Virus record (IMG/VR): IMGVR_UViG_3300048905_000220 | Location: 1-57,314 of that record | From: a virus | DNA: 57,314 bases | Strand: one strand, 5' to 3' | Shown here: one piece after another, positions 28,841 to 31,396 of the stretch | Layout of the letters: every line of letters starts with the position of its first letter | Numbering within the stretch: the first letter of the stretch is position 1 | Translations under genes and position numbers: made by a program | Notes under the pieces: model-generated | What the model saw: the letters and a program-made list of their open reading frames with translations, nothing else | Databases searched by the model: none | What the model was told of the DNA's origin: nothing

Positions 28841-28929
28841 GCCGCCGCCCGCGCGACGTCGATCACCGCACTCTCGCGCAGCATCTGCATCACGAACTTC
28901 AGCCAGGCGAGTTCTGCTTCGACGCTCAT
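28837..28929 (-). CDS. 30-residue microprotein
   Basis: A 30-codon frame (MSVEAELAWLKFVMQ...) with a good ribosome site (GAGGAAG) and ATGA overlaps with both neighbours. It could form one amphipathic helix. The packing supports translation; function unknown. Confidence 0.45.
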   Translation of the reverse strand: MSVEAELAWLKFVMQMLRESAVIDVARAAA

Positions 28930-29144
28930 AACTTCCTCTCCCCAAAGCCGGGCACATCCTTCTCTTCGGTAGTAAAGAGGCCATAGATCCAGGCGAAGGC
29001 AGCAAGGCCAACCAGCGTCCACATGACGCCATAGGCCCACGCCGGCGCACCGAGTCGATCAAGCAGAAGCCAATATAAGGCGGCACCCGGGAGCGGTGAG
29101 CGCGTCGGCAACGAGGACGATTTGATTGCCACCTTGCGTTTCAT
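28926..29144 (-). CDS. Small membrane protein
   Basis: A 72-residue protein: basic N-terminus (MKRKVAIKSSS) and two hydrophobic segments covering about residues 20-55 (ALYWLLLDRLG, then VMWTLVGLAAFAWIYGLF). I choose the ATG at 29144, with GAGG five bases upstream, over an earlier GTG at 29150. First gene after the structured non-coding block. Function unknown. Confidence 0.55.
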   Translation of the reverse strand: MKRKVAIKSSSLPTRSPLPGAALYWLLLDRLGAPAWAYGVMWTLVGLAAFAWIYGLFTTEEKDVPGFGERKL

Positions 29145-29159
29145 GCGCACCTCACAAAT

Positions 29160-29194
29160 AAAAAAGCCACCAGCGCATTACTGCGACAGGCGGC
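29160..29194 (-). terminator. Strong terminator at the end of the structured block
   Basis: On the minus strand GCCGCC-TGT-CGCA-GTAA-TGCG-CT-GGTGGC forms a two-part hairpin with a GNRA-type loop, followed by six T. It lies just before the small membrane gene and defines a likely 3' end for the structured RNA upstream. Confidence 0.8.
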
Positions 29195-29253
29195 GAAGGC
29201 TCTCCAACCTAGCGCGGAAATGGAGAGCTGGAGACGGGTTGCGGCGGCCGGTG

Positions 29254-29573
29254 CTAATGATCCGGCAATGACATCGTGCTGAGCGCGCACTCCATCGCAC
29301 GATCGACATCGACTAGGCGCATCAGCTAATGCGCATTCACCACACTGCCGCTGGCTACTCCCGTCGGTGGCATTCCTACCATGGAGGGTCTTGTGCGAGT
29401 AATCAGCGGTAGTGTGGTCACCGGATTACGCCGGTGAGGCGGCTGCTTACAGCGTGCAGCGGCGTTGCGCGCCCGGGTAGACGCTCGCCTGTTCTGGCCG
29501 ATGCCAGGTCAAATTCTCGTGTGCGTGTGGCGCCGTCTCTTGAGTGTCGCCGGGCGGGCGCTCCGGCACTCAT
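29254..29573 (-). other. Chain of three coupled tiny ORFs (tentative)
   Basis: Three short frames follow one another: 29418-29573 (51 residues, MSAGAPARRH...), 29326-29421 (31 residues, GTG start, overlapping the previous stop as GTGA) and 29254-29322 (22 residues, MRLVDVDRAM..., starting three bases after the previous stop). Start-stop coupling resembles that of real genes here, but ribosome sites are weak and the same DNA is packed with hairpins. The peptides recall Icd/Ash-type frames annotated over regulatory RNA in other prophages; that resemblance is from memory and unverified. Confidence 0.25.
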
Positions 29574-29637
29574 CGGGCAACTATGATCCCGTGCGCGTTT
29601 CGTCGCGCTTCTACGTGATGACCAGGTTCAGGTCGGG

Positions 29638-29664
29638 TTAAGCGATGCCGATGCCTTCTTTCAT
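29638..29664 (-). CDS. Eight-codon leader peptide candidate
   Basis: ATG followed by KEGIGIA and a TAA stop. AAGGAG sits six bases upstream, one of the best ribosome sites in this region. It lies just after the late leader terminator and before the structured block, so ribosomes here could influence RNA folding downstream. Confidence 0.3.
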   Translation of the reverse strand: MKEGIGIA

Positions 29665-29720
29665 ACCCGTCTCCTTGCGAGGTTGGCGACCTTTAGGCGG
29701 ATCGCTTACGCCGGAAATAG

Positions 29721-29748
29721 AAAAGCCCGCTGACCTTTCGGGGCGGGC
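29721..29748 (-). terminator. tR'-like terminator in the late leader
   Basis: GCCCGC/GCGGGC six-base stem (29725-29730 with 29743-29748), followed on the minus strand by TTTT. It lies about 230-260 bases after the putative late promoter and before all late genes, the same geometry as lambda pR'-tR', where Q protein is needed for read-through. Confidence 0.65.
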
Positions 29749-29985
29749 TTGGTGTGCTCCAGGGCTATCTGCCAAGTGAGCGATGTAGGTTGGTCTGCAG
29801 GCCTTTCACCCGCTACGTTTTCGGCGCCTGAGTTGCCCCAGGGATTACGCGCTTCTCGACCCATCGACAGTTCTTTCAGGCGAACGCCGGCTGTAACGCG
29901 GGCGGGGTGTTTCGACTGCCTCGGGTGATGGTGGCGCCGGGTGGCGCGCATTACATGGTGCCGAGGGAACTGTGTTGAGGACTAA

Positions 29986-30014
29986 AGTTTACGCCTGTTT
30001 TTTAGTAGATGCAA
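29986..30014 (-). promoter_or_regulatory. Putative late promoter (pR'-like)
   Basis: Minus-strand -35 TTGCAT (30014-30009) and -10 TAAACT (29991-29986), 17 bases apart, each matching four of six consensus bases. Predicted start near 29979. The stretch 29749-29979 downstream holds no convincing gene and has its own hairpins, for example GCGCC-GGGT-GGCGC in plus-strand reading. Placement between the early genes and the late operon supports it as the late promoter. Confidence 0.5.
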
Positions 30015-30041: not shown

Positions 30042-30419
30042 TTAATCGGGCGCCTCATCGCCGATTCGCGATTTCACGAACGCACGCATGGCTGCAATAA
30101 GAGCCGTCGATCCCTGAGCTTGGCACTTCCCATAGCCGACTTCCACGCCAGTGTCGAGTTCCGCTCCTTCGATTTCCGCGAACCACTCTCGATCATTCTT
30201 GCCGATTGCCGCGATCGTTATGCGAGACCGCTCAATTATCGGACCCGCCAAGCTCCAACTTGTCGAGGGGCTATAGCGCGTTTTGTCCGGTCCGACAACA
30301 CAATAACGCTGTGGAAAGCTAGGCATCATGTGGTCGTTCATGATCCCCGTTTCCATACGATGCGCTAGCGCGACTTGCGCATCGAGATCAGCTCCTTCTA
30401 GGTTATCCACCTTTCTCAC
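30042..30419 (-). CDS. NinX-like protein (DUF2591)
   Basis: A 125-residue protein with the DUF2591/NinX pattern: LEGADLDAQVALAHRM, then YSPSTSWSLAGPIIERSRI and a C-terminal STALIAAMRAFV. Function is unknown but these genes are common in the nin-type region of lambdoid phages just before Q or late genes, as here. Confidence 0.7.
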   Translation of the reverse strand: MRKVDNLEGADLDAQVALAHRMETGIMNDHMMPSFPQRYCVVGPDKTRYSPSTSWSLAGPIIERSRITIAAIGKNDREWFAEIEGAELDTGVEVGYGKCQAQGSTALIAAMRAFVKSRIGDEAPD

Positions 30420-30452: not shown

Positions 30453-30839
30453 CTATTCGCTATTGTCGCACGTTGGCATTTGCCCTTGGGCAGCGCGCAT
30501 CGACTCGACCTCAGCCGGGTTCTCGTCGCGCCATTGCTGCCAGCTGCCGTCGGTCAGCTTCCACTCGATCCATTCGGGGCTATCGGCCGATGGCTGCAAC
30601 TTACGGCGCCGACGGTCAGCGCAGTGCTGACAAAGCTGGATGCACCTATCGTTTGCGCGCTGGTGTTCGCCGCAGATGAATAGGCCGCAGCCATATTCCC
30701 CGCCATACGGTTCGCCGCCGCACACGTAGCCCAGTCCGCGATCGATCTCAGCGCCACAACCCGGATGATCGCACCTCGCGGGCACGCCGTAGCCGACGTC
30801 ACGGTTCCAATTACTGTCGTATCCGATAGACCAGCCCAT
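30453..30839 (-). CDS. Cysteine-rich phage protein
   Basis: A 128-residue protein starting MGWSIGYDSNWNRDVGYG. Cysteines occur in pairs: CDHPGC, CGG, CGLFICGEH and CIQLCQHC, which should bind two zinc ions in its first 75 residues. The C-terminal part has a WIEWKLTDGSW strand and an acidic tail. Such proteins recur next to phage antiterminators; role unknown. Confidence 0.6.
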   Translation of the reverse strand: MGWSIGYDSNWNRDVGYGVPARCDHPGCGAEIDRGLGYVCGGEPYGGEYGCGLFICGEHQRANDRCIQLCQHCADRRRRKLQPSADSPEWIEWKLTDGSWQQWRDENPAEVESMRAAQGQMPTCDNSE

Positions 30840-31396
30840 TACGCCGCCTGCCGCATCTTAGCGCCGGCCCGCGCGCCGTGCGACTGGCACAGGCTCTCGA
30901 GGTCGCTCACCATGTCCTTGATGTAGCGGACTTCCAAGGCGCCGCCCTTGACCGGCTCACGGCCTGGCGTATCGGCGCAATGCGTGCAGGCTCGGCCGGA
31001 GCTCGTGCTGATCTTGGTGCCGTTGCACTGCTCACACTCGCCGCCTAACCAGTGGGCCAGCGAGTGCAGCGCGATCTTCTTATAGATGCCGATCGCCGCG
31101 GCGAGGTCCCATTCGGCCTTGATCTTGATCCACTGGCGCGCGCGGCCCTTCTCGATCACAGCATCCGTCCAGACCTTCAGCAGCACAGCCAGGTTGTGGT
31201 TACCCGATTCGAACGTCTTGTGGCTGATGCCGTCGGCGTACTTCACGCGCGAGAGCATCGAACCGAAGATGCTCCCCGAGCCGCCCGACAGGTCCGCTAG
31301 CGCCGCCGCCGCGAGGATTTCGGTCTGTTTGTGTAGTTCATCGTCCTGCAGGTTGGATGAGTTCAGGGCGTTGAGGTAGCGTTCGGCGAAGGGCAT
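30839..31396 (-). CDS. Q-type late antiterminator (zinc finger)
   Basis: A 185-residue protein. A helical N-terminal domain is followed by a zinc finger C121-x2-C124 and C137-x2-C140 (CEQCNG ... ACTHC), then a helix (DMVSDLESL). This is the layout of lambdoid Q antiterminators that load onto RNA polymerase at the late promoter. It is the last of the early genes, followed by two small genes and the late promoter-terminator. The start has AGGAGC upstream. Assignment rests on the finger, size and position. Confidence 0.7.
   Translation of the reverse strand: MPFAERYLNALNSSNLQDDELHKQTEILAAAALADLSGGSGSIFGSMLSRVKYADGISHKTFESGNHNLAVLLKVWTDAVIEKGRARQWIKIKAEWDLAAAIGIYKKIALHSLAHWLGGECEQCNGTKISTSSGRACTHCADTPGREPVKGGALEVRYIKDMVSDLESLCQSHGARAGAKMRQAA

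Follow-up and report, generated by a model that had tools for sequence, protein, structure and literature searches.

A conserved, folded non-coding RNA block of interchangeable hairpin modules at the start of phage late genes

Gene order and non-coding character of the block

The analysed window was the whole 57,314-nt viral record IMGVR_UViG_3300048905_000220. On its minus strand, the genes follow the order Q-like gene, small gene, NinX-like gene, gene-free block, small membrane gene, two small genes, HNH endonuclease, TerS, and TerL. The NinX-like gene (30042..30419, minus strand; PF10765, Pfam 63.1 bits; phrog_4389) is the last early gene before the block. The small membrane gene (28926..29144, minus strand; ATG at 29144), identified as an ORF with homologues at the same place in several relatives, is the first late gene. 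The gene-free block comprises 836 nt of the minus strand at the late-gene start and was folded as 29155-29990.

Relatives of the terminase were found in metagenomic phages and in genomes of Herbaspirillum, Massilia, Duganella, and other bacteria. The block is syntenic in about 40 relatives, mostly Oxalobacteraceae phages, where it lies 5' of the small late genes, HNH, TerS, and TerL. In a BLAST comparison with related loci, conservation was patchy; the conserved parts were a segment at the 5' end, one with a terminator, a domain in the middle, and the last terminator. Among annotated phage and plasmid records, DNA similarity gave no match.

The Q-like gene (30839..31396, minus strand) encodes 185 aa with a CxxC...CxxC zinc motif. 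Its PHROG Q-like matches were weak, and its alignment to the Cys4 region of HK022 gpQ had an hhalign probability of 20%. Pfam and NCBIfam gave no name, and a PDB fold search from a low-confidence AF2 model returned chance matches only. Together with its genomic context, these matches hint that the Cys4 gene may encode a Q-like antiterminator, whose probable target would be the late leader.

The minus strand of the block folded at -340.9 kcal/mol, compared with -304.7 +/- 7.4 kcal/mol for 20 dinucleotide shuffles (z -4.93), whereas the plus strand gave a z of only -1.66. The position and strand proposed in the first-pass annotation were borne out. In 112 alignments to relatives, substitutions in the block were near-even by position mod 3 (738/586/641), and 261 of the 273 indels were not multiples of three. 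The flanking genes, unlike the block, showed substitutions biased to third positions. The longest ORF within the block (29706-29951, 81 aa) had no family match. A coding explanation is ruled out by the substitution and indel pattern, in agreement with the earlier statement that the block holds no normal gene. Furthermore, G-U wobbles far exceeded A-C mismatches on the minus strand (20:4 and 15:0, and 57:7 in host copies), and therefore the minus-strand RNA is under selection.

The block is a genuine RNA, both folded and conserved, and is made up of several hairpin modules that can be interchanged. Folded by module, z was -2.8 for E1, -4.0 for E2 with its terminator T1, -3.4 for the inverted-repeat region, and -3.6 for the last terminator. 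E3c by itself gave only -0.4 in single-sequence folding; its structure is visible from the alignment only.

RNA modules of the leader

The promoter TTGCAT-17-TAAACT (30014-29986, minus strand) is conserved in relatives as ACAACAGTATTGC...GGCGTAAACT in a 17-sequence alignment. Its -35 element is weak, and TAAACT is near-invariant. A strict consensus scan called neither promoter nor terminator, yet the promoter marked in the first-pass annotation is conserved. It lies downstream of the Q-like gene and upstream of the terminase genes on the same strand, as in a lambda-type late leader. Transcription would start at about 29979.

E1 comprises the promoter and about 110 nt of RNA with a near-invariant core. 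The conserved 5' RNA (29979-29871, minus strand) forms two hairpins, as indicated by the alignment, compensatory pairs, and its fold score. Its apical loop alternates among UUCG, UACG, and GAAA in relatives. Two pairs showed compensatory changes (UA11/CG7 and GC11/AU6/GU1), and the remaining pairs were mostly invariant.

E2 is a 32-nt hairpin (29784-29753, minus strand) of the form stem - CACUU - NNC - AGAUA - GNN - CUGG - stem, with the loop AGAUA and the internal loop ACUU/CUG. Its covariance model matched the window with 44.5 bits (E ~1e-12). E2 covariation was 0.69, compared with 0.185 when shuffled. The inner second pair was GC25/CG11/UA4 and was broken in 0 of 40 distinct sequences; this pair was unconstrained in the search pattern, and therefore its covariation is not a product of selection by the search. 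For the outer stem, selection was partial because a minimum of three flanking pairs had been imposed, and the pattern fixed the loop positions. The invariance of the E2 and E3c loops is in part a consequence of the search patterns. Related sequences are included in the covariation counts, and the strongest evidence comes from pairs with several types across unrelated leaders.

The intrinsic terminator T1 (29715..29748, minus strand), a stem with a U tract, lies directly 3' of E2 and is kept in several relatives. E2 is coupled to terminators: one was found at a fixed distance from E2 in 77 of 94 phage copies, compared with 16 of 600 random windows. In 44 of the 94 copies it lay within 75 nt 3' of the E2 core, usually starting 8-14 nt away, and in 37 it ended about 16-17 nt 5' of the core. 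In the latter copies, E2 cannot act in cis on that terminator because the terminator precedes it.

Three further domains lie between T1 and the last terminator. E3n (29516..29636, minus strand) contains GCGCG-ACGAAA-CGCGC and further hairpins, as defined by an 8-sequence alignment and its consensus fold. E3c (29507-29437, minus strand) is an RNA domain of about 71 nt with strong covariation in two stems across 30 sequences. Its pair 20-50 was AU11 GC9 UA5 GU4 UG1, and pairs 54-68, 55-67, and 56-66 had changed on both sides. A loop pseudoknot CAG/CUG, whose bases are invariant, is possible.

E6 (29339..29418, minus strand) corresponds to the 22-nt inverted repeat noted earlier, whose arms (29339-29360 and 29397-29418) do match, at 19 of 22 positions. 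It consists of a CCACAC...GUGUGG helix and a covarying inner helix, and is preceded by the hairpin CACCGG...CCGGTG. In a set of 8 homologues selected for sequence similarity, both sides had changed in 10 of 18 pairs, 92% of cells still paired, and covariation was 0.492 compared with 0.184. A general E6 scan gave 78 matches versus 36 in controls; therefore, only E6 copies adjoining E2 or found by sequence similarity were relied on.

The last module, E4 (29157..29194, minus strand), is a terminator with a nested CGCA...UGCG, fused to the first late gene's ribosome-binding site, GAGGT. Of 32 aligned sequences, most had the terminator followed immediately by GAGGT and ATG. A single late region elsewhere (L013:4345-5054) carries two E4 terminator-RBS copies, each before an ATG. 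T1 and E4 are both intrinsic terminators between the promoter and the late genes, and the two minus-strand terminators predicted earlier were recovered at 29748-29725 and 29194-29166.

Free variation of the stems had been named in the first-pass annotation as an observation that would count against a structured RNA. Compensatory changes were found in E2, E3c, E6, and two E1 pairs; the stems do not vary freely, and so the proposal passed its own test. The idea of a structured late-leader RNA unlike those in Rfam was upheld. The block resembles a modular leader, with parts shuffled, lost, or duplicated from phage to phage, more than it does one large ornate RNA.

Module copies in other phages and in host chromosomes

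The usual order in relatives is E1, terminator, E2, whereas in the window the terminator comes after E2. E3n and E3c lie 5' or 3' of E2 depending on the phage and are absent in some, and E2 is doubled in some. Because some relatives have no E2 or no E3, these modules are not essential to late expression. Downstream of the Q-like gene in homologous loci, E2 was present in 50 of 66 and strict E1 in 38 of 66. The same E2 is also found in unrelated leader types, told apart by their upstream sequence. The 97 E2 pattern matches include chance ones, and those without flanking pairs were set aside; a GTAATG pattern scan of viral contigs was likewise mixed with chance matches and was filtered using a longer pattern.

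Copies of the modules were also found away from late leaders, next to phage tRNA genes and in host chromosomes, which was beyond the reach of the first-pass annotation. E2 was found in phages of about 90 kb and in records with adjoining tRNA genes; each of the ten records searched had a single copy. In L195 the E3c terminal hairpin directly precedes E2, and several of these phage and tRNA-associated records have E6-like helices nearby. Four records (L195, L214, and L276, phages of about 90-96 kb, and L226, a 39-kb fragment) contain E2 and several CCACACGCATGGCGATT...AGTCGCCAGCCGTGTGG helices in long non-coding tracts that include tRNA genes or tRNA-like ends. These tracts look like composite structured RNAs related to the block modules. 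Klebsiella phage VLCpiP4a (Schitoviridae) has about 1.3 kb without annotated genes right after a five-tRNA cluster (L391:4077-5413); the E2 model had no match in this tract.

E2 was present in at least 79 of the 246 genomes from the family to which a Herbaspirillum strain belongs, compared with at least 5 of 398 sampled genomes of the phylum; both counts are lower bounds because only part of the candidates was scored. Some host copies are prophage leaders (e.g., L436 and L438). Others form Burkholderiales chromosomal arrays of 2-5 tandem units at intervals of 110-136 nt, with E2 at the tip of a longer hairpin, GAUAC..GAG.AGAUUC / GAAUC..CUC..GUAUC. The gene thrS lies downstream of one array, and tRNA genes precede others. 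The chromosomal loci with E2-tipped hairpins are L428-L435, L437, L441, L443, and L447, among which L437, L443, and L447 are single copies and L441 is a double E2. These chromosomal hairpins suggest that E2 may be read by a host protein or RNA, and that the phage has borrowed or imitates an unstudied host RNA signal.

The host E2 loci that were scanned gave no Rfam match besides tRNAs and two RF02278 sRNAs flanking one locus. At this locus (L444:361-803), the two sRNA copies enclose one E2 hairpin, and each has a terminator of its own. RF02278, a toxic sRNA family, scored 15.8 bits in the window against a cut-off of 50, and the E2 hairpins do not match it. GOLLD, ROOL, and HEARO had no match in the whole window at the gathering threshold, and the block at E<5 gave only chance-level matches. 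The C4 antisense RNA of P1/P4/P22 (RF01695) had no match in the window or the block. The earlier impression that the block resembles no named RNA, C4 and GOLLD included, is consistent with these scans.

Probable function of the leader and comparison with known systems

The block is probably an untranslated, terminator-gated late-operon leader that works like lambda pR'-tR' and carries extra RNA domains. In the proposed mechanism, the conserved promoter would fire at about 29979, and without an antiterminator most transcripts would end at T1 as a short RNA, about 260 nt long, that contains E1 and E2. Read-through RNAs would reach E4, which adjoins the ribosome-binding site of the first late gene. 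The protein from the Q-like gene just upstream would let polymerase pass, so that the late genes are turned on with the long leader attached. E1, E2, E3n, E3c, and E6 would be RNA domains maintained by selection. The most likely partner of E2 is a host factor, or a host RNA that pairs with it, which also recognizes the host E2-tipped RNAs. E2 may influence termination, processing, or stability at the terminator next to it, or it may act in trans as part of the short RNA in lysogens. The Stx phage pR'-tR' transcript yields the trans-acting sRNA StxS, and so a short leader that ends at a terminator can serve a function of its own.

Antitermination might instead reside in the nascent RNA, as with HK022 put, where E1 or E2 would bind the elongation complex and polymerase would ignore the downstream terminators, the Q-like protein being secondary or unrelated. 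The roughly 70-nt, two-hairpin putRNA acts in this way (PMC9378689), E1 lies at the extreme 5' end of the transcript, and E2 stands just upstream of a terminator in 44 of 94 copies and near promoter-like sequence in several unrelated leader types. However, E2 comes after a terminator in 37 of 94 copies and is found in host chromosomes and beside tRNA genes, two settings with no obvious long antiterminated operon. By inspection, moreover, putL, located in HK022, does not resemble the block, and this route seems unlikely.

It is rather improbable that the whole leader accumulates during lysis as a stable, multi-domain, trans-acting RNA like GOLLD or ROOL. The length of about 820 nt, the many domains, and the late-operon position would suit such an RNA, as would the fact that non-coding, tRNA-rich stretches of other phages also contain E2, E6, and the terminal hairpin of E3c. 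However, module order and content vary widely among close relatives, unlike one fixed architecture, the block is split by two terminators, one fused to a ribosome-binding site, and no Rfam family matches it. Nor do we give much credit to the view that E2 and E6 are mobile or REP-like hairpins whose structure matters as DNA and which insert beside terminators and tRNAs. Host genomes do contain dispersed and tandem copies, and the association with hairpins and tRNA genes also recalls such elements, but the excess of G-U over A-C reflects selection on one transcribed strand, most phage genomes have one copy at a syntenic site, and the E2 inner stem covaries while its loop is kept.

Alongside the preferred reading of a terminator-gated leader, a broader proposal may be advanced with some reserve. 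E2 could be an undescribed RNA signal common to several kinds of phage and to Burkholderiales chromosomes, where it tips tandem hairpins. In phages it may be positioned at set spacings from terminators in late leaders, and next to tRNA genes, so as to recruit, mimic, or titrate its host reader, and E3c and E6 may belong to this system as further exchangeable domains.

Phage late leaders are usually treated as short terminator-bearing spacers. The late leader described here has several conserved domains absent from Rfam, one of which is also found in host tandem hairpins. Two questions thereby become testable, namely which host factor or RNA reads E2, and whether phages enter the host RNA network via late-leader RNAs. 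The E2 model is specific enough for searching further genomes.

GOLLD and ROOL occur in tRNA-rich non-coding phage tracts (PMC12286853). The block resembles them as a long structured phage RNA with related modules in tRNA-rich tracts of other phages, but it is modular, variable in order, and interrupted by terminators. The Betaproteobacteria toxic sRNA RF02278 / S17 (PMC5688073, PMC11722255) shares the host class with E2 but differs in sequence and structure. HK022 putRNA, two hairpins that bind the elongation complex directly so that terminators are ignored, has in common with the block hairpins near the 5' end of a phage transcript with terminators after them. E2, in contrast, is a single 32-nt hairpin with the loop AGAUA, a Q-like gene is present, and the E2 model had no match in the HK022 stretches searched.

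The lambda late leader, pR'-tR', gives lambda 6S RNA. In Stx phages, the pR'-tR' region is constitutively transcribed in lysogens, terminated, and processed to StxS (PMC7873438). The block shares with both a late promoter 3' of a Q-like gene, an untranslated leader, and an intrinsic terminator before the late genes, and a short terminated RNA is predicted in lysogens here as well. It differs from the lambda type in its length (about 820 nt versus about 200 nt), its several conserved RNA domains, its two terminators, the latter of which is fused to the ribosome-binding site of the first late gene, and late genes that open with small genes, HNH, and terminase. It would work as a known kind of late leader does, but has RNA domains outside Rfam, one of them common to host chromosomes.
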